From Pratylenchus scribneri (taxonomy: Eukaryota > Nematoda > Chromadorea > Rhabditida > Pratylenchidae): a DNA stretch of 64,000 nt. The stretch spans positions 620,001 to 684,000 of the forward strand of contig JAQSEB010000016.1 in the NCBI GenBank assembly GCA_030063045.1, in the 5' to 3' direction. Positions 747 through 20,284 of this stretch are shown here, one piece after another. Position numbers and translations under genes: made by a program. The notes beneath the pieces are model-generated. The model had not been told where the DNA came from. It did not search any database and saw only the letters and a program-made list of their open reading frames with translations. The number at the start of each line of letters is the position of its first letter. Within the stretch, counting starts at the first letter, position 1.

Positions 747-1045
747 GGTCCAATCAACACCTCCATGTTTGAGTTTGATAACATGAATTCGCCGAATAAA
801 GTGCTCAGCCAAAGGGGAGCCCCGGGGAAGTTGGATTGGTCGTTTGAAGTTTTGAGGCTCATCGGAACGATCCATTCGGGGGTGCAACCGATATATCCCA
901 TCTGGATCCATAGCTACCCCAGGCATCGGGAACACCAAATATTTCTGCTCTTGACGAATAAGTGCCTTTTTGGCCTTCTCCATTTCGGAGGCATCAAACG
1001 GGTAAAGAGACAGGGTTTTAGCTGTGGCCAATTTTCGGGAACAAT
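747..1045 (-). pseudogene. BEL/Pao polyprotein, downstream fragment (pre-integrase zinc-binding region)
   Basis: This is the continuation of the BEL polyprotein whose upstream part lies at 20285-25181. The reading resumes exactly outside the Maverick. The right fragment ends ...HFANC and this fragment continues with CSRKLATAKTLSLYPF, so the original frame is recovered once the AACAAT duplication is counted once. It shows the usual end of the connection region (KALIRQEQKYLVF) and the H2C2-type integrase zinc-binding start (HIRR-like RRIHVIKLKHGGV). After HGGVDWT near 747 the reading no longer resembles an integrase, so the catalytic core, C-terminus and 3' LTR are missing or displaced. It is inactive as a gene. 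Confidence 0.8.
1040..1045. repeat. Maverick target-site duplication, left copy
   Basis: AACAAT directly precedes the left terminus AGTAGTATTG. The same six bases follow the right terminus at 20285-20290. A 6-bp duplication is the known Maverick/Polinton integration signature. Confidence 0.95.
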
Positions 1046-1220
1046 AGTAGTATTGTGATGCCCCATTTTTTCCAAAAAAGGCGATTTTTGGCCAACATTC
1101 GAGAGTGCTGCCCTTTTTTGAAGCGGAAAGGTATTGGAGGAGTTTGGAAATGATGGTCAATGTGTTTGGATTGGGTTGTAGGGGCAAATGGGTTTGAAGG
1201 GGCATAAAGCCGATGGATAT
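1046..1220. repeat. Maverick left terminal inverted repeat
   Basis: It starts AGTAGTATTGTGATGCCCC and matches the reverse complement of 20126-20284 almost perfectly for the outer 85 bases. A diverged patch with about 16 extra bases follows, then another matching block (GGGGCAAATGGGTTTGAAGG). Starting with AG and ending with CT is usual for the family. Confidence 0.93.
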
Positions 1221-1548
1221 TGGATGAAATGAAAATAGGCAATGCCATTTGAAGAATTGTTTTAATAAATTTTTTAATTGGAATAAAAGATAAAATGTCA
1301 TAAAAAAATAAAAATTAAAAAATATAATGGAAAATTGGGACTTTTTCAATGAATGATAACTCGTCATGAAAATCCTAAATTGAAAATCCGGGCCGACCAT
1401 TAAAAAATATGAAGCTTTAGCTCTGATTTGACATATCGGATGTATTTCTAGCATTCGTAGGGAATTTTTGCGATGTACCTAAAAAGATGAACTAAATCAT
1501 CGAAAATCCTAACTTTTTCAAAACATAAAGCCAACAAATTTTAATAAT
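1221..1548. other. AT-rich spacer between TIR and TBP-like gene
   Basis: No ORF or RNA gene is seen. It presumably holds the 3' UTR of the minus-strand TBP-like gene. Confidence 0.5.
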
Positions 1549-2255
1549 TTATCGTGGAAATTGTGAGAGTAAATGTACAAATGAATTGAAAAGTTGGTTC
1601 ATTTGAGGGATTTCGCGAATGCCAGTGAGAATGATTTTTCCCGAAACATAAACGAGACCGGTGGCTTTCCCCTCATGAAATTTACAACGAAGTGCCGGGA
1701 AAATTGTAGGATCATATTGACTTTTTTGGATCAAACGAATTCTCGGATCATTCAGCCCCTCTTGTTGATTCCATCGCAATAACTCGTGAATTCGTTCAAT
1801 TCCAATTCGATGAGGCATTTGATGCGCGGTAACAATGTTGACCACTCGCATCCCGTAGATCAATCCATCGCCTTTATCGAATGCCTCTCCTCCTCTTCTA
1901 GCTGCCAATCTCAAACTTTTTGAAACTTTTCGGGCAGCAAATTCTCCCATTTCTTAAAATTATTTTCGAAAAAATAGAAAAAGAATCAATAGTTACCGGG
2001 ATGAGGAACACCGGTCAAAACTACTTTTCCCGATTTGAAAATCAATGCTGCCACAACATTGCATTTTTGATGTTCATCATCATCACCATCTCCTGTTCTG
2101 ACCGGAAATCTCATGATGAGGGAATGAAACCGTCGAGGCGAATATTCAATATTCCATCCATTTCGTGCAATTGCCAAATATTGGCTGTGTGGAATTTTCT
2201 TTTGGGATTTGGAAGGGAAAAGTCGGAAGACAAGACTACAATTTTCAATTTTCAT
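1549..2255 (-). CDS. TATA-binding protein (TBP) homologue encoded by the Maverick
   Basis: TBP binds TATA promoter DNA as a two-repeat saddle and nucleates transcription initiation. Two exons are supported, 2255-1997 and 1952-1549, joined by a GT-AG intron in phase 1, giving about 220 residues, which is little more than the TBP core. Repeat 1 has NIEYSPRRFHSLIMR (residues 35-49) and ALIFKSGKVVLTG (70-82). These match the TBP signatures EYNPKRFAAVIMR and ALIFSSGKMVCTG. Repeat 2 starts near residue 121 and has YDPTIFPAL (166) and GLVYVSGKIILTG (185-197). FAARKVSK between the repeats matches TBP LAARKYAR. An acidic insert (GDGDDDEHQK) interrupts repeat 1. The first codon directly follows a TTTTAG acceptor, so the mRNA may be trans-spliced there. 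The gene lies inside the TIRs. Divergence from the animal consensus suggests it is not a recent copy of the host TBP. Confidence 0.88.
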
Positions 2256-2285
2256 CTAAAAGATTTATTCAATAATAGAAAATAT
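2247..2285 (-). promoter_or_regulatory. Intercistronic region: AATAAA then TTTTAG acceptor abutting the TBP start codon
   Basis: Read on the minus strand, the PAZ gene stop (2307) is followed within 52 bases by AATAAATC, TTTTAG and the ATG of the TBP gene at 2255. This is the layout of a very compact nematode operon with a spliced-leader acceptor. The assignment is inferred from order and spacing only. Confidence 0.5.
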
Positions 2286-2306
2286 TGTGAATGAATGATG
2301 AATGTC

Positions 2307-3189
2307 TCAAATGTCATCGCATTTATTCTCGGCCTTCTTTTTCAAAATCTTCGGAGCCACCAGCAAAACCTCCAATGGAAAATATGATTGGTGCCGCCCC
2401 CCTCCATATTGGATAACGCATGGGAAATACGGATGGCGAAGTTTCAAACCGTGCTTGATAAAGTAATAGGCCCGAACCTGTTTGAAGAAAGGATTTTGAT
2501 GAATTGGAAAAATGAAGAAGACCTACCGTCACATTCAAATATCCTCCCAGGGCAGGAACAACTGTTGAGGATTGAGTGGTCAAATCGCAACAACGAACGA
2601 TGAAATTGTGACTGGTCGGTCGAAGATGGCTTGTTTTGAGCATCATTTCATCCTTCAAATGTTCAATCAATTGACGGCGACTTTCCAGCCCACAGAACAA
2701 GCATTGTAATTCCTTTTGTGAGCATTGATATTTCTCACAAAGATAGTCGATCAAAGGAACCCAGTTGGAATTCTCCTCTTTACGGCATTTGCATCCTCCC
2801 TTGCCTTTTTCTGAAAATGATTTTTTTTTAAAAATGTGATTCTGAATTTTAGACCTTTCAACATGGGTTGCCTTCCAAAAATGGCTCGATTCTCCTTTTC
2901 ATCGTCCTCCTCATTTTTCGAAGCCAATTTTCCATCGCCTTCTTTTTGAGTGGTGACCGAAATAAAATCGTCCTCATCATCATATTCTTCCAGGATTTTC
3001 AAAGTCTCTTCGTCATCATCCTCATCCATTTTATTTTCGGTAGATTTCTAAAAATTTTAAAATAAATTTTGAATTTGATAATAAATTATTAACCTCAACT
3101 CCGTCAATAGCTGTTGGTGTATTTTCCTGATTTTTTTGTTGGGCATCATTGATCACTTGAAGCCAGTCGTTGGCCAGAATAAAATCCAT
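2307..3189 (-). CDS. Stand-alone Argonaute-type PAZ-domain protein encoded by the Maverick
   Basis: PAZ domains bind the 3' ends of small RNAs in Argonaute and Dicer. Four exons join without a stop: 3189-3094, 3047-2855, 2810-2527 and 2477-2307, all GT-AG, giving about 247 residues. Residues 1-100 are acidic and low-complexity (MDEDDDEETLKILEEYDDE). The C-terminal half reads as an Argonaute PAZ. It opens with IDYLCEKY, has a central FIVRCCDL strand, and ends with YYFIKHGLKLRHPYFPCV then YFPLEVLLV. These correspond to Ago YFK..Y.L.L.YP.LPC and YLPLEV. The protein stops soon after this landmark, so no MID or PIWI domain and no slicer activity are expected. It is followed by the TBP-like gene on the same strand and is divergent from the packaging ATPase. 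A role in sequestering small RNAs is inference only. Confidence 0.82.
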
Positions 3190-3282
3190 TTTTGAATGTA
3201 TTTTTTGAATATTTGAAAATTTGTTTTTTAAGAATTTTATCCTAGCCAAATTTGACCTTATTTATATATAATTGAATGGATT

Positions 3283-4035
3283 ATGAAATTGATTCAAAAA
3301 AAGATGGAATTTTCTAAAATTGATTCTAAACAATTGCTTTTTCGTCATCCTTTCACTATGATTGTTTCAGGGAGTACTGGAAGTGGGAAATCGGAATGGC
3401 TTCTTCGCCTCTTTAGAAATTTTAATCATTTAATTGGAATAAGCAATGAGAAAGATGAAAAGAACCTAGATTCAGAAACCCCAATCAAACTTATTCTCTA
3501 TTGTTATGGTGAGTTGAATCCAAATATTGTACAAATGCAAAGAGTTGGGAAAATAAGTTGTGGTGAAATACCAATTCTAACTCATCCAGGCATTCCGAAG
3601 GAAGAACTTTTACGCGAATATGCTAAACAAACAAAAGGAGGGCTGATGGTAGTGTTGGATGATTTGATGATTGGAATTGGAGCAAGTCAAGAATTTTTAG
3701 ATTCCCTTTTCACAAAGGGTTCACACAATCTTGGCATAAGTATCATTCTCGTTACACAACATTTGTTCACAAAAGAATTGAGAGTGCCCCGAAATAATGC
3801 CCATTATTTGGTGCTGATGAGAAATCCAGCAGGAGCATTACAAATTCGAAATCTTGCTGTCCAACTGTTCCCTTCGAAAACGGCATATTTCATGGAAGCC
3901 TATGGAGATGCAACAAATAAAAATTTTGGATATTTACTAATAGACATGCATCCATCCACTGTAGACTTCCTTCGCCTCCGGACAAATATATACCCAAATG
4001 AAGAAATGCCAACGATAATTTATCTTCCAAAATGA
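3283..4035 (+). CDS. ATP: Maverick genome-packaging ATPase (FtsK/HerA, A32-like)
   Basis: This is a DNA-packaging motor ATPase of the A32 type that would pump the element's DNA into capsids. It has 250 aa. The Walker A motif GSTGSGKS is at residues 30-37, after the family-typical HPFTMIVSG strand. Walker B is GGLMVVLDDL at about 117-126. LVTQHLFTKELRVPRNNAHY has the sensor-like Q and R features seen in Polinton ATPases. The start could be 3283 or the second ATG at 3304. It opens the intronless plus-strand cassette, and its TGA overlaps the next ATG as ATGA at 4032-4035. Confidence 0.95.
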   Translation: MKLIQKKMEFSKIDSKQLLFRHPFTMIVSGSTGSGKSEWLLRLFRNFNHLIGISNEKDEKNLDSETPIKLILYCYGELNPNIVQMQRVGKISCGEIPILTHPGIPKEELLREYAKQTKGGLMVVLDDLMIGIGASQEFLDSLFTKGSHNLGISIILVTQHLFTKELRVPRNNAHYLVLMRNPAGALQIRNLAVQLFPSKTAYFMEAYGDATNKNFGYLLIDMHPSTVDFLRLRTNIYPNEEMPTIIYLPK

Positions 4036-4442
4036 CTAGAAGGCATTTAAAAAATTCAAAAATCCGTTCAATAGAATTTAGTCCAATTATAAAAGAAAAT
4101 TTGAATTTTTTAAGAAAAATTCATGAAAACAAACGTTCACATCTAAAAATTAGACAAATTCTAATAGGTGCAAGAGATGAAGAATTGCTTACACTTGTCG
4201 AAATTTGTTTTAACCTATTAAAGAGTAGAATCCCTCTGAGTAAAAGACATCATAAGCTTCTCAAAAAACAGGCTATTATTGTAAGAAAACTTGCTCGTTC
4301 AAGATCAGCTAAAACCTCAAAATCATTACTCCTGAAAAGTGTTGGACAAAGAGGAGATGGTTTGCCTCTGGTTCCAGCCATATTATCCAGTGTTATTCTT
4401 CCAATATTAACGGAAACAATAATCTCAAAAATAAATAAATAG
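4032..4442 (+). CDS. Small basic Maverick protein with C-terminal hydrophobic helix
   Basis: This 136-aa protein is rich in Lys and Arg (for example KRHHKLLKKQAIIVRKLARS). It ends in a hydrophobic stretch LVPAILSSVILPILTETII. Small basic proteins with an LP-rich terminal helix recur next to the ATPase in Mavericks and adintovirus-like elements and have been compared with adenovirus core or membrane-active peptides. No enzyme motif is visible. It starts in an ATGA overlap with the ATPase stop, implying coupled translation. A virion DNA-binding or membrane-lytic role is an inference. Confidence 0.65.
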   Translation: MTRRHLKNSKIRSIEFSPIIKENLNFLRKIHENKRSHLKIRQILIGARDEELLTLVEICFNLLKSRIPLSKRHHKLLKKQAIIVRKLARSRSAKTSKSLLLKSVGQRGDGLPLVPAILSSVILPILTETIISKINK

Positions 4443-4479
4443 ATGACAATAAATTCTAGAATAAAAAAATTCTTAAGCA

Positions 4480-5358
4480 ATGAAACATACAAATCGAATG
4501 TTTTTAATTCCCGAAGAACTTTACCAACACTATTTTTCATCCCAATCTGTACAGAGTCAAGATGGAAGCCCATTGGGGCATATTCAATCAAAAATGCAAA
4601 TTTTATCTGACCCCCTTCAAGCTAATTCTCGAATGGGAAAGGAAGAAAGGGCTATTCGCTACGATCAGGAATATAGTAAGCGCTATAGCAAACTTCAGAA
4701 AGATCAAGAGGAAAAACCTTTGAATGTTCGACTTCAAAATTTAAGGGAAATTGTGGAAAATATACCAGCACCCGTTGTTCAAGAAAATAAAACAACAATA
4801 CCCATTTCAAAAAAAGCATCCAAAAAAGTATATCTTCAAAAAATGACTAAAAAGTTTTCAAAGCCCATAAAAAAGGGAAAATCGACGATTGATGATAATG
4901 AGAATGATGATGATGATGATGAAGAAGAAGAGGAGGAAATTTTTGAAGATGCCAAAACGGGAAAAGATGATTTAATAGCCGGAACAAGCGAAGCTAATAT
5001 TTTTGTCGAGAGAAAGAAAAAGGCATACGATTATGTGTCTAGAAATTTAAAGGATTTGGGAATTAATAGTCATGGTCAAATTGTTCAAACATCGAACATT
5101 GGTGCACCTATACCTATTAAAACTAGCTCAGTCGCAACCATCATTGATCATTTGGTGAATAATCAAGGAAATCGAAGGCAACCTCTTCCTACTGGATATG
5201 ATAAATTTGTGGAAAGGATAGTCCGGCATCCAGAGTTGGTAAAAATTCTGGGGTTGAAGCAAAAGAGACATCAATCCGGTTCGGGAATGGTCCTTTTTAA
5301 AAAGGCATATAAAAGAGAGAAAATTCCATTTAAATTTAAACCATCACTTTGGAAATGA
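4480..5358 (+). CDS. Conserved-type Maverick protein of unknown function, acidic centre
   Basis: The protein is 292 aa. The N-terminus (MFLIPEELYQHYF) and the following Arg/Lys/Glu-rich helix (GKEERAIRYDQEYSKRY) look like the uncharacterised protein found between ATPase and integrase in other Mavericks. The centre has a run of Asp and Glu at about residues 140-157 following a Lys-rich stretch. The C-terminal half (residues 180-292) looks folded, with a basic end (YKREKIPFKFKPSLWK). I do not recognise a domain. Its stop overlaps the integrase start by 10 bases. Confidence 0.6.
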   Translation: MKHTNRMFLIPEELYQHYFSSQSVQSQDGSPLGHIQSKMQILSDPLQANSRMGKEERAIRYDQEYSKRYSKLQKDQEEKPLNVRLQNLREIVENIPAPVVQENKTTIPISKKASKKVYLQKMTKKFSKPIKKGKSTIDDNENDDDDDEEEEEEIFEDAKTGKDDLIAGTSEANIFVERKKKAYDYVSRNLKDLGINSHGQIVQTSNIGAPIPIKTSSVATIIDHLVNNQGNRRQPLPTGYDKFVERIVRHPELVKILGLKQKRHQSGSGMVLFKKAYKREKIPFKFKPSLWK

Positions 5359-6488
5359 AATCCAAAAGCCAAATTCTCGATCATTTCTATAAAGATATTC
5401 ATTCCCCTTCGGCTTATACTTCCCTCATTCCTTTGTACAAGGAAGCAGTGAAAATACGTGGAGATATAAGCAAAAATGATGTGCAAAAATACTTAGAATC
5501 GCAACAAACTTATACTCTACACAGAAGAGCGGTTCGTCGCTATCCAACTCTTCCGACTCTCGCTCCCGGTTTACATACGGAATGGCAAGCAGATTTGGCA
5601 GTATTTGATAGGATTTCTCGAAAAAATAGAGGATACAAATATTTGCTAGTTTGTATTGATACACTTAGTCGCCAAATTTTCGTTGAACCAGTCAAAGGCA
5701 AATCCGCTCCTAATATGGTGAAAGCTTTTGATCGAATATTCACAAGGCCAGGAATCCATATTCCATGGAAAATAAAAACGGATCAGGGGAAAGAATTTTT
5801 AGCCAAAAAAGTACAGGAATATTTCAAAGGAAAGGAAGTGCAACATTATTGCATGTACAATCCTCGATTCCATGCAGGTATGGCCGAACGAGCAAATCGG
5901 ACAATCAAAGAACGGTTGTATCGCTATTTTACGGAAAGGAAAACCCAAAATTGGACTGGAGTGATCCAAGAAATTGTGGATGGAATTAACCATTCATACA
6001 ACGCCTCAATTGGAATGAGGCCAGTGGATGTGAATTTTAAAAATGCTGAAAAAATCAGAAAAACTCTTGAACAAAAAGCAATTGAAAAATTCCAAAATAA
6101 ACGTGGAAAGAAGAAGAAATTCGAAGTAGGAGATGCGGTTAGAATTGAAAAGCATAAACACATATTCCAAAAAGGGTTTTTGCCCAATTTTACTAGTGAA
6201 ATTTTCTTTATTGAACGAATTCGTGACAATGTCCCTTACCAGCCTATTTCTTATCGAATTCGGGATGGCAATGGTGAATTGATCAAGGGCTGGTTTTATT
6301 CGCATGATTTTAGCCGGTTTAGGCAGAAGAAAACTTCTATGGATTCGGAACAGCCAGTTTATGACATTGAAAAAATTATAAGGAAACGAAAGAAAGAGGG
6401 TCGAGAATATTTGTACGTTAAATGGAAAGGTTATGGAGAGGAGTATAATAGCTGGATTCCAGCAAGTACCCTTCTATGGAAAGAATAA
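5349..6488 (+). CDS. INT: Maverick integrase with C-terminal chromodomain
   Basis: This is a retroviral/Ty3-type DDE integrase (379 aa) that would insert the element's DNA. The catalytic triad is D82 (WQADLAVF), D145 (KTDQGKEF) and E180 (AGMAERANRT), giving DD35E spacing. The core is preceded by the short conserved TLHRRAVRRYPTLPT-like segment. An SH3-like region with FEVGDAVRI follows the core. A chromodomain closes the protein at about 333-376, with the aromatic cage pattern YDIEKIIRKR, YLYVKWKGY and WIPAS. Chromodomains usually bind methylated histone tails and may guide target choice. It lies in the intronless virion cassette. Confidence 0.96.
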   Translation: MEMKSKSQILDHFYKDIHSPSAYTSLIPLYKEAVKIRGDISKNDVQKYLESQQTYTLHRRAVRRYPTLPTLAPGLHTEWQADLAVFDRISRKNRGYKYLLVCIDTLSRQIFVEPVKGKSAPNMVKAFDRIFTRPGIHIPWKIKTDQGKEFLAKKVQEYFKGKEVQHYCMYNPRFHAGMAERANRTIKERLYRYFTERKTQNWTGVIQEIVDGINHSYNASIGMRPVDVNFKNAEKIRKTLEQKAIEKFQNKRGKKKKFEVGDAVRIEKHKHIFQKGFLPNFTSEIFFIERIRDNVPYQPISYRIRDGNGELIKGWFYSHDFSRFRQKKTSMDSEQPVYDIEKIIRKRKKEGREYLYVKWKGYGEEYNSWIPASTLLWKE

Positions 6489-6526
6489 ATAAAGAAAATA
6501 ACATTTGAAAATGAAATCCTATTAGA

Positions 6527-7666
6527 ATGTCTTCTTCAACCACATCCTTCTACATAATCCTCCCTTCTAATACACCTGTTGATGGGAATAAGACAAATTC
6601 ATTCCGTGTCCGTCTTCCTCGTAAACTTCAATTCAATTCGGAATGGTCTGTCGGGTTGGCTGTGCTGGTTTATCCTCACACTTGGCCATCGCTAGGTACA
6701 ACCACCCAACAATTTGTTAATGTTGTATGGAAAACGGGGGAAAATGTCCGAATTGAACTTCCCTCGAATACATTTACCAATCCCCTTGAGTTGACCAAAG
6801 CAATGACAAAAGCTTTGCAATCTGGAAGTGAAGAGCTGGCTAAGAAAGTACGAACAACACAGTTCTCATTTCTTGAAGTTGTTAAAAAGGCTGAGAAACG
6901 AGCCCGAGAAGAACATGAGAAAATTACTAAAGAAATCCATCAGAAACAATCTATGCCCACTCTAGTCAAAGATATTGAAGAGGTCTCCGATTTGGAAGGT
7001 GCCAAAACGGTTTTGGAACGGCAAGAAAGAGAAAGTTCAAAATTGGTGGAAGATGAAGAAGAACAGCAAATCTCGCCTCAAAAAATTCCAACTTTAGAAG
7101 AACTCTATAATCGCTATTTGAATGAAGAAATTGCACTATTAGACGATGAAGATCGCATGATTCTAGATCAGACAAAACAAAAAGGCCTTGAGCCATGGAT
7201 TCATGCTTATAGACATGTTAATTTCGCTTGCCGACTCCAATTCGATTCCACACATAATCGTTTCACATTTCACCTGGATGCAGGGTTCATTCAACGAGTT
7301 GAGCTTAGTGAACAACTCTCCTATATTCTTGGATTTGATCAACAAATTCTAAATGAAACCACTGTGGCTAAATTCATGCCCGATTTGAAAGGAGGGGTTT
7401 CCTCTTTTTTAGTCTATGCCCCTGATTTGATTGAGCCAATGATGTTTGGTGATGTTACTGCACCTATTCTCCGTGCCGTCACAATTCGGGGCAAACCCGA
7501 TGAAATTGTAGAAGAACAATTCTACGCAATTCAGTACCATAAATTACTGGTGAAAGAAATCAGTGAAATTTCCATTGAAATTCGTTCATCCAATGGCGCA
7601 CTAATACCTTTCATGTATGGAAACTGTACATTAACTTTGCATTTTCGAAAATCCTCATATTTTTAA
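6527..7666 (+). CDS. Maverick minor capsid protein (penton-like)
   Basis: The protein is 379 aa. The N-terminus (TSFYIILPSNTPVDGN, then FRVRLPRKLQF and EWSVGLAVLVYPHTWPSL) is the characteristic opening of the Polinton minor capsid or penton protein, predicted to be a single jelly roll occupying capsid vertices. A charged helical insert spans about residues 115-215 and is rich in Glu and Lys. The C-terminal half is again beta-rich (FTFHLDAGFIQRVELSEQLSYILGF and a final CTLTLHFRKSSYF). It sits between integrase and protease, as in other nematode Mavericks. Confidence 0.85.
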   Translation: MSSSTTSFYIILPSNTPVDGNKTNSFRVRLPRKLQFNSEWSVGLAVLVYPHTWPSLGTTTQQFVNVVWKTGENVRIELPSNTFTNPLELTKAMTKALQSGSEELAKKVRTTQFSFLEVVKKAEKRAREEHEKITKEIHQKQSMPTLVKDIEEVSDLEGAKTVLERQERESSKLVEDEEEQQISPQKIPTLEELYNRYLNEEIALLDDEDRMILDQTKQKGLEPWIHAYRHVNFACRLQFDSTHNRFTFHLDAGFIQRVELSEQLSYILGFDQQILNETTVAKFMPDLKGGVSSFLVYAPDLIEPMMFGDVTAPILRAVTIRGKPDEIVEEQFYAIQYHKLLVKEISEISIEIRSSNGALIPFMYGNCTLTLHFRKSSYF

Positions 7667-7679
7667 TCCATTTCACACA

Positions 7680-8156
7680 TTGATGAACAATTTTCAAATT
7701 GACAAAATTCTCGGAAGAAATCAATCGACTGCACCTTATTATTTGGGTTGTTTTCCATCAGATAAACTTGACAGAGTCCCTTCGAAATATTTTCCCCTTT
7801 CATTTGTGGTAAATTTCGATCCGTCTTGGGAAAAAGGTTCACATTGGGTAGCCATTTTTGCCGAATCACCTCATTCCGTAGACTATTATGATTCTCTGGG
7901 TATATGGCCTCCTCCTAATGAAAATATTTCACGATATTTGTCTAATTTCAATCAAATTGAATTCAATCCATACGCCTTCCAAGAAATTGGCTCTAGGAAT
8001 TGTGGAAAACATGCAATATTTTTTCTCTATAACCGATCCATTGGAAAAACAATGAACGAAATTCTCCAATTTTTAATTGACAGGGGAATGATTCGGAAAA
8101 CTTCTCCTGATCGAATAGTTAGTAATTTTTTAAATGAAAAAATATTTGATCAATGA
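7680..8156 (+). CDS. PRO: Adenain-like maturation cysteine protease
   Basis: This 158-aa protein resembles the adenovirus maturation protease that cleaves virion precursor proteins. The catalytic set is visible: H55 in GSHWVAIFA, D71 in YYDSLG, Q101 in AFQEIG and C108 in RNCGKHAIFFLY. Length and spacing fit the Polinton PRO family. The stop overlaps the next start as ATGA at 8153-8156. Confidence 0.95.
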   Translation: MMNNFQIDKILGRNQSTAPYYLGCFPSDKLDRVPSKYFPLSFVVNFDPSWEKGSHWVAIFAESPHSVDYYDSLGIWPPPNENISRYLSNFNQIEFNPYAFQEIGSRNCGKHAIFFLYNRSIGKTMNEILQFLIDRGMIRKTSPDRIVSNFLNEKIFDQ

Positions 8157-8773
8157 ATATAAATAAAATACAATTTCAATATCTTCACAATAAACAATTC
8201 TCAAAAATGCATGTTGATTTCGATCCTCTCAATGTTGAATGGTCTAAATTTACAATTGGTCCATCAGAAGATGACGAATTCTACCGCCAAACCGGTGGTT
8301 ATGCCATCTTTCGAGGCATGCCCTACCAACGAGGGAATGGTCTTGGTTCAATATTTTGTCGCCTATTTCGCTACCTACTTCCCATTGGGAAAGAAATTGG
8401 ATCGGCCATCGGTCGACAAGGATTGGAAACTGGTAGCAAAGTTTTGAGCAATGTGCTTGAAGGAAAAGATTTAAAGCAATCCTTGATTGATGAGGGAAAA
8501 GTCGGATTAAAATCCCTCTTGGATAAAGCTTCAAGTGGATTAGAGCGGCAACAACAAACTGGACAAGGGGTCTTTGATTTTAAAAAATATGGAAAAAATG
8601 GGAAGAAAATTGCCATACCAAAGCTAGGCAAACATATACATAAACTTGCTTCCGTAATGGGACCATCAAATTTTATCCCATCGACGAAGAATAAAAAGCG
8701 ACGACTACCATCAAAACCCAAAACAAAAAATCCTCCAAAAAGATTGCGAATTGATTCGCTCGGAACATATTAA
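8153..8773 (+). CDS. Maverick capsid-associated protein (pVI/PY-like)
   Basis: The protein is 206 aa. The centre reads YQRGNGLGSIFCRLFRYLLP, then GKEIGSAIGRQGLETGSKVLSNVLEGKDLKQSL in several segments, and LERQQQTGQGVF. This pattern (GxG-S-hydrophobic followed by amphipathic Gly/Ala helices) recurs in Mavericks directly before the major capsid gene. It has been compared to membrane-active minor virion proteins. The C-terminus is basic (KNKKRRLPSKPKTKNPPKR), a likely nuclear localisation or DNA-binding tail. Function is not established. Confidence 0.7.
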   Translation: MNINKIQFQYLHNKQFSKMHVDFDPLNVEWSKFTIGPSEDDEFYRQTGGYAIFRGMPYQRGNGLGSIFCRLFRYLLPIGKEIGSAIGRQGLETGSKVLSNVLEGKDLKQSLIDEGKVGLKSLLDKASSGLERQQQTGQGVFDFKKYGKNGKKIAIPKLGKHIHKLASVMGPSNFIPSTKNKKRRLPSKPKTKNPPKRLRIDSLGTY

Positions 8774-8783
8774 ACAAACAAAA

Positions 8784-10106
8784 ATGAGTTGTTCCAAAAA
8801 AATAAGTGCAAAAAGCCCATTGGCTGTTGACACTGGCTTAAACATTTTCACTGTTCCCCCTACAAATGTTTCAATTCTCCGTTCACATTATAGGGAAATC
8901 CTTCCATTGAGTACAATTACTCAGGATTCTCCATATCTTTTCAGAATTTTTAGTGACAATCTATGGACTGATTTGTCCCGCATTTACCTTTATCTTGAAC
9001 TTTCAATCGAGAAAAAGTCCGGAAATAATTGGGTACCGATTGTAGCTGAAGATACTTCAGTTGGGTGTATTCAGGGAATTGGCCAAAGTTTTGTTCAACA
9101 GCTTAAAGTTTCAGTAGGAAACACCGATTTATATGATAGTGGAAGCCTATATCCGTTCAAAAATTATATGACCACTGAATTATCCTACCCAGGAAATGTA
9201 AAAGCAAATTTTCTGGCCTCCGCTGGCCACTATCCAATCCTAAAACATGATACTTTAGGAGATGAGGGTTTTAAGAAAATTGTAGCTCTTTTTGCTGAAG
9301 GCAAGCGAGCACAATTTCTCTCTAGATTGGATTTTGATTTTGGTAATCAAGAATTATTCCTTCGGAACAATATGGACGTTTTATTCACAATTTTTAAAGC
9401 CAAAGACAATTTTTGTATCCATACTTTGAAAGCAGCCGATACAAATAGCTATCGCCTCTTTGTACACGATGTAAAAATCTATGCTAAAATGGTAGAGGTT
9501 CAACCCTCTCTGAATTTATCAATCTATAAACAGCTGGAAAGACAACCAGCCACATATTCCATTCGAAAAACTGAAATGAAATCATGCTTCCTTAGTGCGG
9601 GTCGAACTTCAATAGATTATAATGCTTTTAGTGGGAATATTCCGCGAAGAATAACTGTGGCATTCGTAGAGAATGCTGCATTCAATGGAGATGCTAAGAA
9701 AACCCCATTCAATTTCAAACCATTTGACATTAGAGAAATCGCAGTCCATGCTGGAGGCCAAATTTATCCCATTGTACCTTATAAAATGAAATTTGCCGAT
9801 AATGAGTTCATTCGCCCCTATGTGGACATGTATGAAGCTTTAGGAGTGGCAAATAGTGACCGTTCATTCGATATTCCCGTTGAAAAATTCAAGGAAGGAT
9901 GGACATTTTTCACCATTCCCTTAACTTCCACTTTGGATGATTCCTGTGGATTTGAGCTGTTAAGAAGTGGAACAACCAGCATTCGAGTTCTTTTCAATTC
10001 AGCAATCCCAGATGGAGGGGTTGATATGCTGGTTCTAGGTGAATTTGACCAATTGGTCATGATTGACTATAATCGTCATATAGTTTCCGATTCCACACTT
10101 GGATGA
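8784..10106 (+). CDS. MCP: Maverick major capsid protein (double jelly-roll)
   Basis: The protein is about 440 aa from the ATG at 8784. An in-frame ATG at 8751 exists but overlaps the previous gene, and MSCSKKISAKSPL is the better start. It has the family's opening (IFTVPPTNVSILRSHYREILPL), a middle with DLYDSGSLYPFKNYM, and a C-terminal jelly roll with YPIVPYKMKF and LVLGEFDQLVMIDYNRHI, typical of Polinton MCPs. It would form hexon-like trimers of an icosahedral capsid. Near 9,570-9,660 the reading SYSIRKTE-like ATYSIRKTEMKSCFL then RRITVAFVENAAFNG also fits the family. Confidence 0.93.
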   Translation: MSCSKKISAKSPLAVDTGLNIFTVPPTNVSILRSHYREILPLSTITQDSPYLFRIFSDNLWTDLSRIYLYLELSIEKKSGNNWVPIVAEDTSVGCIQGIGQSFVQQLKVSVGNTDLYDSGSLYPFKNYMTTELSYPGNVKANFLASAGHYPILKHDTLGDEGFKKIVALFAEGKRAQFLSRLDFDFGNQELFLRNNMDVLFTIFKAKDNFCIHTLKAADTNSYRLFVHDVKIYAKMVEVQPSLNLSIYKQLERQPATYSIRKTEMKSCFLSAGRTSIDYNAFSGNIPRRITVAFVENAAFNGDAKKTPFNFKPFDIREIAVHAGGQIYPIVPYKMKFADNEFIRPYVDMYEALGVANSDRSFDIPVEKFKEGWTFFTIPLTSTLDDSCGFELLRSGTTSIRVLFNSAIPDGGVDMLVLGEFDQLVMIDYNRHIVSDSTLG

Positions 10107-10160
10107 TCGGGAGAATTAATATAAATAATAATTAATTTTATGTCCATTTAGTAATAAAAA

Positions 10161-10496
10161 ATGGAAGAATCAAATTATTACAACAAACAAGCTTTGGAAA
10201 ATTTCCGCCTACTTTCCAACAACACTGAAAACAACAACAATTCATTTCCCCTTCAATCTTTTCTAACAATTGACTCTGATTATGTCAAAAGTCAAAATGG
10301 AAAATCATTTCATCATGAAGTATTCCTATTTTTTCTACAATATCTTATTGCTTTCCCTGTATTCCTTCTTTGTTGGGTTGTGATCGTAAGCTACCTGAAA
10401 AGAAGAGGACATATAACACAAAGCGACGCTGAAAGCATGATTGATGAATTAAAGGATATTAGAATTGCCAGCCCTAATTCCCTCTTCAAAAGATGA
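10161..10496 (+). CDS. Small single-pass membrane protein, unknown
   Basis: The protein is 111 aa. Residues 1-50 are polar and Asn-rich (NNTENNNN). One hydrophobic segment spans about residues 53-78 (FLFFLQYLIAFPVFLLCWVV), and a charged cytosolic-type tail follows (YLKRRGHITQSDAESMIDEL). It is the last gene of the plus-strand cassette, 54 bases after the MCP. I do not recognise a family. The position suggests a structural or egress role, which is unproven. Confidence 0.6.
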   Translation: MEESNYYNKQALENFRLLSNNTENNNNSFPLQSFLTIDSDYVKSQNGKSFHHEVFLFFLQYLIAFPVFLLCWVVIVSYLKRRGHITQSDAESMIDELKDIRIASPNSLFKR

Positions 10497-10945
10497 TCAA
10501 CAATATTTTATTCCCATTCCCTTCATCGACGACGACGAAAACAACAACAGAAATAACAGCAATCCTTTTGGACCTGTAAATTAATATTTCATGGCCACTG
10601 AGAGAGATTGGATTATATTTATCCAACATTTATCAACTCAATGGCATAAAAAATTAATTTTGAGGTCAAAGGAATTTGCCTCCCCTCCAAAAATTAAAAT
10701 AAATTCATCCATCTTTATTCATTATCAAATTTCCGATTGACATTATATAAAAAAGAGTGATGAAAAATCATAAAAAACTCACCTTTTTATTATAATGTCA
10801 TTTCGGAGATTTTGATTGGAAAATGGTTTAAACAACTTTTATTCATTAAAGAGGAAAATTCAGGTAAATTTTTAAAATTAATAAACAAACACAAATTTTT
10901 AAATAAAATGGAAAATAGTGAATAAAAATGTGAACAAAAATCCAT
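10497..10945. other. AT-rich convergent intergenic region
   Basis: It lies between the 3' ends of the plus-strand cassette and the minus-strand polymerase. No ORF is supported. It is presumably the two 3' UTRs and polyadenylation region. Confidence 0.5.
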
Positions 10946-13900
10946 TTAATTATTTTGATGTCCAAAAGGCAAAATTTGTTCTCTCATCGTTTGGACAATT
11001 CCTTTTTTGTAAACCGATTGATATTTCTTTATTGTTGGCCTCATATAAACCATTCCCCGCTTTGTTCGACAAAATGTTGAATATTTAATGGAAATGGCCT
11101 TCTTTTTCATGCTAAATTTGTTTATGTTTTTTTTAAATTTTCCCTCAATTTTTACCTAGTCATATTGAATTGTTGTTCCACTTGTTGAAGGATGGCAGCA
11201 AAAGTCAATTTTTTGGAAGCAGATTCCGTAATTTGAAAGCCACGAATTTTTCGGGTCAATTTGATATCGGTTCCATCCAAAGCCGAATGCAAATAGGCAT
11301 AATTTTTGGCCCCGGCAAAAACAATTTTTTGAATACGGCGATCCGGATTTTCTTTTGCCATTTCACCCAGAAAAGTGCCTATTGAATTTTTATATTGAAA
11401 ATTTTTATTTTTCCCCTTTTTTCCCACCTTCTTTTATTGTTTTTTGGCCAATTTTTCTTTTTATAAAAAGCGAATCGGTATCGCAATATAAAATGCAATT
11501 GTCCAATTTTACTGCCTCCATTATTCGTCGATAAAGCAATCGCCGGCCATGACTAGTCACACATGAAGCGATCAAAACATTATTTGTGCCGGGTTCCTCG
11601 ATAAATTCCTCTTTTTTTCTGAAAACCATTCGGTCTAGGTGTTCATTCAAATGCACAACATCGAGAACTTCAATGCAGGGATCGGCCACCAATTCATGGA
11701 ATTCCTTGGCCGAACGGGTTATTTGGATGGATGTTGAGTTTACCCGCTGACAGAGTTTGCCCCATAATGCATTGAGGAGCAACTTTCTTCAAAAAATAAT
11801 TCAATTGAAATTTTTTAAAAAATTTATAAACTCACATAATTTCCCGAAGGCCTTTATTGAAAACCATTTGCTCTGGGTCAATTTCAATGCCTTCCTTTTG
11901 GGCATAATCCCGAATAAACTCCTTCTTTTGCTGCTCGGTTTTCACATGTGAAGGCCATCCTGATGATTCAACCTAATAATGGGGAAAAAAGCATATTGAA
12001 TTTTCAAAATAAATAATTTCTTACTTTCATTTTAAGCAAAGTGTTGATGTATTTTCGAAAAAGGTCCTTCCTTTCACCTCCATCCGTCCATTGTCTGTCC
12101 TCCCAATGCCAAATCTTTAGGGAATATTAATTAACAAAAAAATTTTTTCCCTCTAAATACTTCATAAACATCCAAAAATGTATATCCCAACTCTAGGCCT
12201 AGTTCAATATCCTCATCCACTAGGGCATCGATCCACGACCGTTGTTCATCCGAATGCCGGCATTTTTTCAATTGTTTATCGGCACATTTGGAGCAAAGAG
12301 GAAAGACGAGGAGATGCTCTTTTGTGCGGTATGGAAGAAAAGGTGGAAGCATTTCTTTGGTCGAAAGCAGTGGCATTCTCTTTGGAGGCAATATACGAAC
12401 CAGATAAAATCCTTTGATGTGTAAGCCTTTGGGAAATTTTGCCAAAGACCAAGGAAGAGAGGGCAATTCCAATCGGTCCAAATCCTCTTTGCCATAAACA
12501 TTGGGCGAACCGAGTGGATAACGGCCATTTTTCATAACCGATGGATACATTGAAACCTTTGAAAAAAATGGGATAAATCAAAAATATTTTTACATCTTTC
12601 CATATTTGTCCCTCATTTTAAATAATTTTCCCCAATTTGTAAACTTACAATATCAAAATGCTCAATAATTGTGTCGGGTTCGGTGACGGAATCGGCATAA
12701 AGTCGGAATGGCTCAACTCTTCCTCCTCTCAAAGCATTTAGGCGAGGGTGAAGAGGAGGAGGAGGCAAATCGGCTCGATTCCACAATTTTCGAAGTTTGG
12801 AATTTTTGTTGAGCATTTGTCGAACAGCGCATTGCCAAACTTCCACTACTTTATAACCCCTACGTTCCAATTCCAATTTTCTCATTTGGCTGCGGGCAAA
12901 CAAATCTTCGGCAGTTCGATTTCCTTGCAATATTTGTTTGCGATCCCTATAGCATTTCACACATCCTTTTTGAAAAATGGAATTTTTTATGGAAAAAAAG
13001 TAAAAATTTACCGTGATATCTGCATCCGTTATATTCAATAATAATTGGAGGGCCACCATCATTTGATTCGATCAAACCATCAACCCGAAAGGTCATCCCA
13101 TCGGGGGAATATTCGCCTTTTGTGGAGTCGGCAGTTGAATTTTTTTCCCAGTAATTTTTGATAAAATGTAAAAGAATCTCCTTGCTTCGTTACTCTGGAC
13201 GTGTGACGGCCTAAGACCCGATTCTGGAAGATTTATCATCATATTTGGCCTGAGAAATTGCGCGCGCCATATTGTTACAGCAAGACCGGCAATAGTAGAG
13301 CATAGATCGAATGGGTCCACATTTGGAGAAATTTTTTGAATAATTTCTTTGAATTTCAGGCAGCCGATTCTATTTTTATATTTTTGGAATATATTTTTAA
13401 TTTTAAACATGAAAATACCTTAATAATTGAACATCATTAGAACAATATTCAATGAGGGCCGATTTTAGGTCAAAAGGTGTCCGCCAATTTGCTGAATACC
13501 ATTGTTTTAATTCCGCCAATTCCATTTGTTTCATTTGTGATGGGCAATAATATTTGATTGGAGGGAGGCGATCCAATGGTTTATTCAAATTCTCCATACG
13601 ATTCCACAGATGTGGAAAAGGAGGTTTTTTTTGGACTCCGCTTCCTTGCATTCCAAATGTGTCAAAAAGACGAGAAAGAGGGCCTTGGATAAAATTGATG
13701 GAATCCTTGAATAAAATTCGCCTTCGGTGGCTTCCTCCCAAATAAATGCGATAAATTTTAAGTCCTATTGAATAAAAATGGGTTTTAATTTCATTTTCCA
13801 AAATGATTCTATCTTACCGGTCATTGTTAATGATGGCGCAAAATTTTGACGATAAATTGCAGACAAAAGAAGATGGAGATCGAATTTTCCTCCATTGTGG

Positions 13901-16720
13901 GCCAGAACAATTGTTTTGATTTCAATACTGCCCTGTGAAATTAAAAACATGAGGAATTGGTCGCTGGGAGTCCTTCCGCCTTCGAATGTGTGGAAATGAA
14001 GAAGTCTGGGGTTGGCCGGGTCAATTTGATTCTTTTTGAAGCGGAAATTCTTTCCCCAAATTCCGCAACAACAATCCTTTGCATATTTTCGAGCATTTGG
14101 AAATTTTTTATTTCCAGTTGGAATTTGAACTTCAGGATCCATTGAGCATTTATTACAGACTATTTCACAAATAATTAAGTTTGGCACTTGACGCCGACAC
14201 TTCAAAATATTTTTGATCAAAACAATCCTATTTTCCACTTACTCGAACACCATTGATCAACATTTTCTGGTCCTGACAAGTTTCAATGTCGAAGAAAATG
14301 TAACGAATAGACTCATCTTCTTTTTCTTCTTTTTCCTCTTCATTTTCCATTTTAAAAAAAAGTGGTTGAACATAACAATGGTGCTCTTCGTTTAATGATC
14401 GAATGGCCGAACAATTTTGGCAAGGGAAAAATGTGGAGCATTCTTTGGCCCTTTCATTCGTACATACATGCTTTTTCCCTCTTTTGTAAACCTATTCAAA
14501 AAATTCTATTCCAATTCCAATATTAAAAAATACTTACAACTTTATTACATTCGGGACAGAAAAATCTTTCCATGCAGATTGAAATTCCGCCTTTTTTCCC
14601 AATTTTTGCATGATTTTGAAAACATCGTTCATTGGGAAAATAAAATCCACATTTGGAACAATGAATGGGTGGTTCCTTTCCTCTTTTGCAGGGATAATCG
14701 GCCCCATAACCGTAGCACAAATAACAGCAAGCCACACAATTTTTATTATGCGATTTTTGATATACAATTGCCTCACAATCAGGGCAGAAATTTCCACGAG
14801 TCTATAGGGGAAAAAATTCAACATTAAATCGCCTAAAATCATTTTGAAAATAAATATGGTCTTATTCTATTTTTTGGAAAATTGTGGTTCAATTAAATGC
14901 ATTCGAAGAATCATATGAAAGACTCAATTCATCTCCAAAATATTCCATTTGAATTAAAAATTAAATGAATTTTTTAATATTCGAATTTTATGCTGAGATT
15001 TTTCGAGTATTCTTCATAATTTCCATTTTATTATTTAAATTTATACCATTTGGTTATTAACTTTATTAAATGGCAAGTGTTTTCTTATCAAAAAACAAAT
15101 TTTGAAAAATTAATTCGGGCAGAAAATAATAACTAATAAAATCAAATCACAATATTAACATTTTCCAAAAAAAATTATCAATTCATTTTCTATTCCATTT
15201 AAGAATTTTAAAAAAGTCATAAATTATTTTATGATTATTCATTTTGAATATTCAAAATTTTAGAAAGAAAAGTAAATAAATTATTATAAATTTAACCTGC
15301 ATTAGTTTTTTCATATTCAAAATTAAATCAAAATGGTTCCCTTGCAGCAATATAAAAATGTTGTTTCTGGCTGTTGATTTTCCTTTATAGACAACTTTGA
15401 ATCCTTTCTCGGCATTAATACAAATAAAACGGATTAGGCCGGGATATTTAGAATTGAATAATTTTTGTATTATGGCCAGATGATTGATGTTATATGAGCG
15501 GAGATTATGTTTTATGCCAACAGTTTTAAGCAAAAATATAGACAAATCCTTCTGTTTATCCGGGTCGGCATAAAGAGAATTGAATTTGGATTGTTCCTGA
15601 AATGTAGCTGCTAAACCCATCACAATCGAGCGGAATAAGCAGAGATTGTCATCGTTGTAAATGGGCAAGATTCCCCTTTTTTTGGCCATAAAATAAAGTT
15701 GCGGAGATTTGGGAAAACAACCACCAAAAAGTCGACGCCTCCTCCTCCATTTTGCATTTTTTGATTTGATTTTTTTCACTGTAATATTATATAAATTTCC
15801 ATAATTAATTTTTGTCAAAAAACAATGAAATTATGCACAATTTTTGATCAACAAATTACTGTTTTAAAAAAGCGAAATGACCATTTTAAAGGTGAATATA
15901 ATGGATTAATTTTTGGTTTTTTTCAAAATAAATTTTGATAATTTCATATTTTTTGATTTAATTTTGGATGGTATATTTTAATCTCTATTTTTGAAATATT
16001 CCATTATAGAAAAACCTTTTTCTTTCATTCCCCACAGGCCATATAATTTGATCTGGTTCACAGTTTTAAAAATGCGAAATTTTCCTCCACTCTGCTTTGC
16101 GATGAGCATTATGGCTTCCGCCATTGATTCAGCCGAATTTTGATCCCGAGGTCTCAACGGAACGAAAAATGGATAGTCCATATAATAATTTGTCCATTGT
16201 AGGGCCAGTTTTTCCGGGAGACCTTTTTAAAAAATGAAAAAATCAATTTAAAGCGGAATTAAGCACCATTGTAATTTTCCAATCTATTGATTAACGACTG
16301 AAAAATTTCCAATAAAACTTCTTTTGGGTCCCATGCACATTTCAATTTAAAAATTTGCAAATTAATAATCTCTGTGTATGAATTGCGGCTTGAAGATCTC
16401 GAATTTTCCACATTTAATATTTTCATGAAATCCCGAATTGTTGTTCCTTGTCTTTTCTTCCTCCTCCTTTTGTTTAAAACAATATCTTCCGGTTCATCGA
16501 ACATAATTATTTTTGGAGCTGATTTGAACAAATCTGAAATAATTTAAATAGAAAATTGAGCAAATTTGATAAAATTCTTTGGATTAAAATGGAAAAATGA
16601 CCAAAATTAATATAATTTAATGGATTTTTCCAGCAAAAACTGGAATGAAAATCATTTTTGAATTTTTGCCTAAATACGGTGATCGATTTTTGGGGGCTTC
16701 CCTTTATTCAAAAGAGTCAT
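10946..16720 (-). pseudogene. POLB: Protein-primed DNA polymerase B, intron-rich, with apparent frameshift
   Basis: This polymerase replicates the element. Exons on the minus strand with GT-AG introns are 16533-16267, 16222-16016, 15778-15297, 14801-14538, 14491-14243, 14199-13818, 13764-13419, 13369-13012, 12965-12649, 12556-12161, 12114-12025, 11972-11836, 11786-11428, 11378-11156 and 11111-10946. A possible first exon is 16720-16676. The N-terminus has NDDNLCLFRSIV and a Cys/His zinc-finger region at 14538-14801. Exonuclease motifs are FFDIETC, AHNGGKFDLHLL and YCSNDVQLL. Polymerase motif A is VSMYPSVM, motif B is LNALWGK and motif C is YCDTDSLFI. The C-terminus is ILPFGH. In exon 13369-13012 the frame that fits upstream (CSTIAGLAV, then SNEARRFF) stops, and the downstream match (RVDG, IIIEYNGCRYHG) is in another frame. 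The shift lies at about 13130-13195, near an A7 run. It could be a mutation or a sequence error. Confidence 0.9.
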
Positions 16721-16770
16721 TGTGACCAAAATAAATCCAAATGAATACACATCATTTTTCTTATTTAATT
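16660..16770 (-). pseudogene. Protein-kinase fragment (subdomain IX only)
   Basis: On the minus strand a 30-codon reading bounded by stops contains KKNDVYSFGFILVTMTL followed by NKGKPPK. The DVYSFG motif followed by hydrophobics and a KP is the subdomain IX signature of tyrosine/TKL-type kinases. No HRDLK, DFG or N-lobe sequence is found nearby. It is therefore a relic, or one exon of a degraded gene. It overlaps the proposed first POLB exon. The sequence shows only the motif; kinase ancestry is inferred. Confidence 0.45.
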
Positions 16771-16849
16771 TTTAGTTTATTTTGTTCAATCAAATTAAAA
16801 TAATATTTTCCCTTTTTTCCTTCCATTAATCAAATTATTTTTATATTTT

Positions 16850-17340
16850 CTCAGAGGGTTAAAAAAGAGAGCAAAAGGTTGGGAAAAAGCGATTGGCATT
16901 GCTCGTTTGGGCCAGATTGCATTTGGAGATAAGAAGGTGGTAAATGGAGGCCAGGGAAAATGTTGGCCAAGGTGGAAATTGGCCTTGTTTTTGTGGCCCC
17001 AAGTTGTTTATGGAAGAAAGGAAAGGTTTTGGTGGAAAATGATGACTTTCCCATATTATTTTTTCAGGAATGGGAAAGTTCATCATCGGTGATGGCAATA
17101 GAGCGGTAGATGGCAATAGGGCGGTGCTTCTCAACAGCTTCATATACAAACCCCTCCCATTCATTCACATCTCCAATCAAGGTTCATTTGCCACAATAAT
17201 AAAAATGTGGTTTTTTTTTTGGAGAATTCGGGGCAAAATTCTTTCTTCCCTCCATTCCAACATCCCTTCCATTTATCCAATTTTTATTCATTTTTTCACA
17301 AATTTCTTTATTTTAATTAAAATCATTTTTCTTTTTCCAA
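16850..17340. other. Relatively GC-rich non-coding block
   Basis: This stretch contains readings in several frames but none resembles a known protein. A short tandem duplication (GATGGCAATAGxGCGGT) occurs at 17090-17125. It may be the remains of a degraded gene or the promoter area of the following cargo gene. Confidence 0.3.
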
Positions 17341-17344
17341 AAAA

Positions 17345-17995
17345 TTAAAATGGAGGCATCCTCCTTTATTCCTTAAACAAAATCAAAATAAATTTCCAAT
17401 TCCTTATATTCCACAAAAAGGCATTTTCCCTTTTTTCCATTTTTTAATAATTTAGTCACATTTAAATTAAAATATGTCTAAAACATTAAATTAGAGGCAT
17501 TATTCCCTCATTTCATTTCTGAAAAATCTAAAATATATGCCTCTTTTTCATTAGAATTTTGTCCTAATAATCCAATCTTAATCCCGTTTTACATAATCAT
17601 CCTTCAAACATTAAAATAGAGGCATCTTTCACAGTTTAATTTTTTGATAAATCTAAATTAATGCCCCCCCTTTTTCACATGGAATTTTGTTTTAATAATC
17701 CAATTATAATCCCATTTTTATCCATTTTTTCAAAATATCCTAAAAATTAAAATAGAGGCATTCTTCGCCCTTAATATTTGAAAAAATTTAAATGCTTCTT
17801 TAATTTTTTGAAAAATCCAAAATAATTGCCTATTTTTCATGTGGAATTTTGTTTAATAATCCAATCATAATCCATTTTTTAAATTTTATCCTATAAAATT
17901 AAAATAGAGGCACTTTTCCCCTTTAATCTTTGAAAAATTTAAAATAAATTCCTCATTTTCATTTGAATTTTGAATTAATAATTTATATAATTTTC
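17345..17995. repeat. Degenerate tandem repeat, about five copies of 110-150 bp
   Basis: The phrase ATTAAAATAGAGGCA (or a one- to two-base variant) recurs at about 17346, 17483, 17612, 17746 and 17896. Between the copies are variants of TTTTTCATxTGGAATTTTG and TAATAATCCAATCxTAAT. The array fills the space upstream of the CxxC cargo gene. It ends at a TTTTCAG acceptor near 17992-17998. Confidence 0.75.
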
Positions 17996-18044
17996 AGAGA
18001 GAAGCTTCAATTTGCACAACAAATCTCAAACCCTTCAACAACAA

Positions 18045-19815: not shown

Positions 19816-20125
19816 AGTGAAATTGGATGAAAATGAGGGGAAATTCCATGGAAAAATAATTAATCCCCCATCGTAGTTAGTTTTTGATTGGAAAAATTGT
19901 TGAAGGACCCTTCCAATCATTTTTTGGGTCCGGAAAAACACAATACACACATATTTGGCAAATAAAATAAAATTTTCGTAATTCAATTTTTTACAATATT
20001 CTTTCAATCATTTTATTTGTTCAATTTTATTTTGGGGATTTTCAAATTGTCAATTTTTTTGGACATTGGCATTTTTTTTTGGGCAATATTCGGCAAAAAA
20101 GGTCGGTTTTCCACAATGTCCATTC
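19816..20125. other. 3' UTR and spacer before the right TIR
   Basis: It contains the poly(A) signal AATAAA at 19961-19966 for the cargo gene. No ORF is supported. Confidence 0.6.
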
Positions 20126-20284
20126 ATATCAATCGGCTTTATGCCCCTTCAAACCCATTTGCCCCTACAAACCCCATCATTTCCAAACTAGTCAAATATC
20201 TTTCCGCTTCAAAAAAGGGCAGCACTCTCGAATGTTGGCCAAAAATCGCCTTTTTTGGAAAAAATGGGGCATCACAATACTACT
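20126..20284. repeat. Maverick right terminal inverted repeat
   Basis: It is the reverse complement of 1046-1220 with a 16-bp length difference in one diverged patch, and it ends CATCACAATACTACT. The TSD AACAAT follows at 20285-20290. Confidence 0.93.

Follow-up and report, generated by a model that had tools for sequence, protein, structure and literature searches.

PAZ domains anchor the 3' hydroxyl of small RNAs, the PAZ domain of Dicer reads the ends of double-stranded RNA (dsRNA) (PMC12454879), and the titles of PDB entries describe isolated PAZ domains solved in complex with RNA. Among viral proteins that sequester small interfering RNAs (siRNAs), p19 is an siRNA-binding homodimer and B2 binds dsRNA (PMC12454879). 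An inventory of Argonautes in root-knot nematodes drew on orthology together with the domains Piwi, PAZ and AGO1; PAZ-only proteins are not mentioned in the available parts of its text (PMC5934874). Here we describe a gene for a predicted lone PAZ domain inside a Maverick/Polinton element of the nematode Pratylenchus scribneri, found in a 64,000-nucleotide (nt) stretch (the window; positions 620,001 to 684,000 of contig JAQSEB010000016.1, assembly GCA_030063045.1), and propose that PAZ is a standard gene of the Mavericks of this nematode lineage, where its synteny is fixed across many copies. None of the titles and abstracts listed by searches of the open literature, a scope that leaves subscription journals mostly outside, reports such a gene in Mavericks.

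Results

The PAZ gene lies on the minus strand of the window, with its start codon at 3189-3187 and its stop at 2309-2307 when the sequence is read exon by exon. Its four in-phase exons, translated one by one and not as a joined sequence, amount to 96 + 193 + 284 + 171 = 744 nt, or 247 amino acids (aa) and a stop, and are separated by GT..AG introns; an earlier note on this DNA had read four minus-strand exons joining in frame to about 247 aa, with a stop after the PAZ landmarks, and these coordinates agree with it on both counts. The third intron (GT..AG, 46-55 nt) occupies the identical place in 29 of 30 loci (L031-L060), the exception being L046, which has no exon 4 nearby; the count stands for fewer independent copies, since two of the loci (L032 and L051) represent the window gene and there is overlap between exon-3 and exon-4 loci. 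The reading frame is continuous across this junction in two relatives that lack the third intron (L073 and L074), and the junction recurs unchanged in the annotated proteins P0034 and P0039 of Meloidogyne. Taken together, the conserved intron, the intronless relatives and the Meloidogyne junction make the splicing predicted for the PAZ part sound, while introns 1 and 2 are predicted from splice signals and phase.

The gene lies inside the element. The arms of the terminal inverted repeats (TIRs) are 112 nt long (1045-1156 and 20174-20285), 96% alike and begin AGTAGTATTGTGATG. When the empty site is rebuilt by removing one copy of the target-site duplication (TSD), the flanks form a single open frame over the junction, which places the PAZ gene within a Maverick insertion and not in host DNA. 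Judged by eye, the frame that received the Maverick is a pol frame of BEL/Pao type. Arms, TSD and open empty site thus bear out the earlier placement of the gene inside the TIRs of a Maverick.

Exon 4 of the window gene alone matches the PAZ family PF02170 with E 2.6e-4 and 21.4 bits (Pfam cut-off 28.8), over profile positions 66-110 of 123, whereas the Pfam search finds no PAZ in exon 3 taken by itself. Relatives encoded in a single open reading frame (ORF) reach E values down to 1.3e-10, above the cut-off, which is passed by six of the seven Maverick-type single-ORF relatives tested, L074 being the exception, and by one of two BEL/Pao stretches. Predicted models of two database relatives, P0026 and P0039, show the PAZ fold. 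All 28 PDB sequences matched by the PAZ profile are Argonautes; a Dicer origin was rejected, as only Argonaute sequences appear among these matches. The 3'-end pocket was compared at AGO2 residues that include H271, R277, Y311 and H316. The equivalent of H316 is histidine in 60 of 60 aligned relatives, that of H271 is histidine or tyrosine in 59 of 60, and that of Y311 is aromatic or histidine in 58 of 60. Beside the pocket, the family conserves a stretch around an invariant P, C, P and E, and the proteins of class A, to which the window gene belongs, carry an acidic low-complexity leader.

No PIWI match is listed in the window, and neither PIWI nor a helicase or RNase III domain was found in the element ORFs tested; single-ORF relatives likewise terminate after PAZ. 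The PAZ identity proposed in the earlier note is supported by sequence, by the fold of relatives, by synteny and by selection, and its reading of a PAZ without MID and PIWI agrees with the stop codon and the window's lack of listed PIWI matches. Of the checks proposed there, the profile search gave a window match below the cut-off and matches above it for most single-ORF relatives, and structure prediction returned the PAZ fold for P0026 and P0039 only. The evidence supports the view that the window gene encodes an intact, lone PAZ domain with no detectable MID or PIWI and a largely kept pocket.

The PAZ gene is under strong purifying selection. Where the ratio of replacement to silent substitution rates (dN/dS) is defined and above zero, it is 0.04-0.18 for exon 3 in more distant copies, 0.03-0.22 for exon 4 and 0.15-0.29 in other PAZ classes; exon 2 gives 0.10-0.24 in three copies and is undefined in three more, where dS is saturated. 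Overall, these values (0.03-0.29) are comparably low to those of the packaging ATPase in window-class copies (0.11-0.16). Identical copies and those with saturated dS, such as two distant pairs, give an undefined ratio or zero, and in one close pair, L024/L026, all four changes are replacements. In exon 3, five further copies of the window type show zero to one silent change, a sign that the element has multiplied lately. A pseudogene or chance ORF was rejected because of the low dN/dS.

Searches of the P. scribneri assembly (227 Mb, 276 contigs) returned at least 138 matches to PF02170, 52 to exon 3 and at least 125 to exon 4. The 214 PF02170 and exon-4 rows entered into the linkage analysis merged into 203 places; exon-4 rows at PF02170 places and all exon-3 rows were excluded, and the exon-3-only place C101:161575 is thus uncounted. 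Markers comprised 150 ATPase rows, 148 protease rows and a selection from 105 Piwi rows with at least one per cluster, and with about 150 each for ATPase and protease the linkage counts are lower bounds. For at least 109 of the 203 PAZ places a listed Maverick ATPase lies no more than 20 kb away (2.6% by chance), and 108 of the 150 listed ATPase places have a PAZ within the same distance. When ATPase and adenain-type protease serve together as Maverick markers, 150 places have only Maverick genes nearby, 27 only PIWI, three both and 23 neither, the last comprising five in or beside giant frames, four that read as host-Argonaute-like (L006, L007, L015 and L023) and 14 unexplained.

The spacing of PAZ and ATPase falls into classes: less than 1.3 kb (48 places, all on opposite strands), 9 kb on opposite strands (29), 8 kb on the same strand (15), 7 kb (eight opposite, four same) and others (five). 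A tandem array on C63 repeats the arrangement, with PAZ at 11,769, 31,914 and 52,058 and ATPase at 21,485, 41,629 and 61,773. Genes resembling the TATA-binding protein (TBP) occur at 43 places in the genome; 39 of them are at most 3 kb from a PAZ, all 39 on its strand. One of the 48 close places (C19:2619797) is an Argonaute-like gene with PIWI. This multi-exon gene, with PAZ and PIWI, spans C19:2618784-2623936, and its PAZ match lies 0.4 kb from a Maverick ATPase. At C139:561641-584779, PIWI exon matches flank Maverick markers, a pattern that would suit a Maverick inserted into a host Argonaute gene.

Outside P. scribneri, a search of 5.8 billion protein sequences with 12 PAZ ORF queries, under a length limit that bars full-length Argonautes, found 54 relatives, the named species being Meloidogyne enterolobii, M. 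hapla, M. incognita and Aphelenchoides avenae. With P0039 as query there were 21 relatives, and the named ones were all Meloidogyne. Three proteins (P0059, P0068 and P0070) carry TBP; PAZ is below the Pfam cut-off in P0059 and P0070, and P0068 has no PAZ match in the Pfam search. The presence of TBP alongside PAZ in Meloidogyne proteins means that the neighbour pair recurs in another genus. The earlier note's proposal to look for the gene in the Mavericks of other nematodes was answered in part: relatives exist, those of Meloidogyne and Aphelenchoides being known from protein entries alone. The 238-aa protein P0033 of A. avenae has by eye two PAZ-like halves, of which Pfam matches the second, below the cut-off. 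Among viruses, an IMG/VR search for relatives gave 32 pattern matches, none confirmed, and a viral-structure library compared with the PAZ model gave 238 matches at E up to 10 and none at 1e-3.

PAZ-like stretches also end giant frames of BEL/Pao type on C46 (511-520 kb; 3,606 aa), C234 (2,338 aa) and C30 (2,793 aa), which were examined in pieces by Pfam. A Pao peptidase and a reverse transcriptase are present in C46 and C234, an integrase in C234, and a Phlebovirus_G2 glycoprotein in C46 (1.1e-58) and C30 (8.5e-57); the terminal PAZ passes the Pfam cut-off in C46 and falls below it in C234. Searching the genome with the C30 stretch gave 72 rows, and 15 of these fall within open frames that are 704-3,674 aa long. 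Maverick and BEL/Pao PAZ group together (support 90/81) in a tree built from 46 PAZ stretches, for which the program warns of long branches, and 33 element rows share one branch with eight host Argonaute rows (91/92). The Maverick PAZ most likely derives from an Argonaute of the host worm.

The remaining genes of the element are listed in Table 1. The TBP-like gene follows PAZ on the minus strand, 51 nt past its stop, so that this virus-like element has its own TBP-like gene adjoining its PAZ gene. The protease candidate has no Pfam family above cut-off and no PHROGs match; the capsid candidate has no Pfam or PHROGs match and no meaningful PDB match. Within the DNA polymerase, the piece at 13406-13813 matches DNA_pol_B_2 (E 2.9e-6, 26.9 bits over a cut-off of 25.8), and those at 12131-12577 (E 3.7e-4) and 11408-11788 (E 0.018) are below cut-off.

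Table 1. Coordinates, within the window, of the Maverick element, its genes and its insertion site
Feature	Position	Strand	Basis or remark
Maverick/Polinton element, 19,239 bp	1046..20284	.	TIRs, TSD, empty site, integrase with chromodomain, A32-type ATPase, family B DNA polymerase
Left TSD, AACAAT	1040..1045	.	6-bp
Left TIR	1046..1156	+	arm alignment
TBP-like gene, two exons (approx. 2255-1997, 1952-1549)	1549..2255	-	PF00352 E 4.1e-8 and 5.7e-13
PAZ gene exon 4, PAZ domain end and stop (2309-2307)	2307..2477	-	PF02170 match below cut-off
PAZ gene exon 3, first two thirds of PAZ domain	2527..2810	-	52 own-genome matches; model of relative P0039 shows a PAZ fold for this region
PAZ gene exon 2, acidic leader	2855..3047	-	no Pfam family above its cut-off
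PAZ gene exon 1	3094..3189	-	start codon, 32 codons
Packaging ATPase (Pox_A32-like)	3283..4035	+	E 5.1e-6, 26.6 bits over cut-off 22.8
Integrase with chromodomain	5355..6488	+	rve 3.3e-13, Chromo 3.2e-8
Adenain-type protease	7635..8156	+	by eye
Probable major capsid protein	8658..10106	+	size and gene order only
Family B DNA polymerase, pieces between introns	11152..14491	-	DNA_pol_B_2
Right TIR	20174..20284	-	arm alignment
Right TSD, AACAAT	20285..20290	.	6-bp
Interrupted BEL/Pao-type gag-pol frame	20291..25193, rest at 1039 and below	-	family by eye

Other genes adjoin PAZ elsewhere in the genome. On C130, beside another Maverick-type PAZ gene, are a TFIIB-like zinc ribbon (L080:1-306, minus strand, 9.4e-6, under cut-off) and a TFIIB repeat (L095:547-999, minus strand, 1.2e-9). 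One Maverick class has an Innexin gene beside PAZ (L096:271-1200 on C41, 3.1e-81; by eye also L029:1980-3035, minus strand, on C155). An ADP-ribosyl cyclase-like ORF adjoins PAZ on C1 (L022:667-1257, minus strand, 5.9e-6, barely above cut-off), and ORFs in L024-L026 resemble it by eye.

Discussion

A small-RNA sink or modulator of RNA interference (RNAi), as suggested in the earlier note, would fit the largely conserved pocket and the structures in which an isolated PAZ domain is bound to RNA. We lean, with modest confidence, towards the reading that Mavericks have kept a lone PAZ domain, derived from a host Argonaute, which grips the 3' ends of small RNAs and lowers silencing of the element. 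The protein would hold siRNA duplexes by their 2-nt overhangs, or guides by their free ends, and compete with Dicer hand-over and Argonaute loading, and reduced loading would weaken silencing of the element; an acidic leader or tail could keep it soluble or recruit a partner, and the PAZ at the end of BEL/Pao polyproteins may serve the same purpose in a second element type. The occurrence of related PAZ genes in many Mavericks suggests that the elements use PAZ to blunt the worm's RNA-based defence. The wider proposal of a new anti-RNAi class, a PAZ-only decoy from a host Argonaute that is near-core in several nematode Maverick lineages and occurs in BEL/Pao polyproteins, some of them glycoprotein-bearing, strikes us as evenly poised.

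Several observations weigh against these readings. All class-A proteins tested score below the 28.8-bit Pfam cut-off (window exon 4, 21.4; L074, 15.9; P0039, 19.1; P0059, 22.5; P0070, 26.1), as does L085, and the fold models are of database relatives and not of the window protein. In the relatives, R277 (K/F) and Y279 (V/F/L/I) of AGO2 are mostly replaced and the F294 position falls in an alignment gap; the pocket is therefore similar to that of AGO2, not identical. The C30 frame (L097) has no Pfam PAZ match at 0.01, its stretch being tied to the family by pairwise similarity only. The BEL/Pao group itself has support of 18/0, its join with Maverick PAZ only 90/81, and with long branches besides, one capture of PAZ and several look alike. 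A lone PAZ may also be too weak a binder for a sink unless it is abundant.

It is unlikely, though worth keeping in mind, that PAZ acts instead through proteins, as a dominant-negative decoy that mimics the Argonaute surface meeting Dicer, loading factors or other partners. Its relatedness to Argonaute PAZ, the conserved P, C, P, E stretch beside the pocket and the acidic leader of class A would suit such a decoy, which has no obvious need for a pocket histidine kept in every relative aligned. A use for the element's own benefit, in which PAZ binds RNA or DNA 3' ends for replication, transcription control or packaging, perhaps with the TBP-like protein, we consider rather improbable. The same-strand pairing of PAZ with 39 of 43 TBP-like places, the combination of both domains in one Meloidogyne protein model and the TFIIB-like gene adjoining PAZ at another locus argue for it; against it, 12 of the 48 ATPase-close PAZ places lack a TBP-like neighbour at up to 3 kb, and none of the 43 TBP-like matches extends to the other classes of PAZ, although a more distant TBP could be missed.

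Mavericks do transport host genes (PMC10680173), and the L024/L026 pair departs from the low dN/dS seen elsewhere, as might be expected of a captured host exon of no benefit to the element. The ATPase-like constraint on PAZ and its retention in more than one class of Maverick, and in another type of element besides, make such passive cargo very unlikely. That these exons are part of a host Argonaute gene complete with MID and PIWI is barely credible. Such genes exist, as the 27 places near PIWI without Maverick genes attest, but here a stop follows PAZ, the TBP-like gene comes next, the element boundary lies at 1046, no PIWI is listed in the window and single-ORF relatives end after PAZ; a host Argonaute exon was rejected on the stop, the boundary and the PIWI result. 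The shortness of the database relatives is no evidence on this point, given the length limit of the search.

If the lone PAZ grips small RNAs as we propose, it would show a route by which virus-like transposons persist in hosts that silence with small RNAs, and two unrelated types of virus-like element would be countering that silencing with a piece of the silencing machinery itself. It would also account for the "PAZ domain-containing proteins" of root-knot nematode annotations and could give research a small natural tool that binds 3' ends. Inventories of nematode RNAi genes should treat PAZ-only entries with caution, as they may be transposon genes.

Comparison with known systems

With the PAZ of eukaryotic Argonautes (human AGO1 and AGO2, Drosophila Ago1 and Ago2) the Maverick PAZ shares motif order, the pocket histidine and, in its relatives, the fold; unlike Argonautes, it is encoded by a mobile element, has an acidic leader or tail, and comes with no N, MID or PIWI domain that we could find. 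The closest host PAZ in the tree belong to an Argonaute clade of the same genome (L006, L010, L011, L013, L017, L018, L020 and L023), most of which share by eye the pattern TTHL ... (Y/F)FPME with element PAZ; unlike the latter, six of the eight lie within 10 kb of PIWI matches, and their PAZ stretches are probably single exons of larger genes. The Meloidogyne UniRef entries named "PAZ domain-containing protein" are of the same family and similar length and have the PAZ-TBP pair of the window, but are known as proteins only, the available parts of the related papers giving no Maverick location for them, whereas the window gene is placed in a Maverick.

The folds of p19 and B2 are not known to be related to PAZ. 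The outcome proposed for the Maverick PAZ is nevertheless that of these viral siRNA-sequestering suppressors, small RNAs being kept from the RNA-induced silencing complex (PMC12454879). Caenorhabditis Mavericks with the cargo genes wosp and krma are likewise nematode Mavericks that carry host-derived genes, and PAZ is not named in the available parts of that account (PMC10680173).
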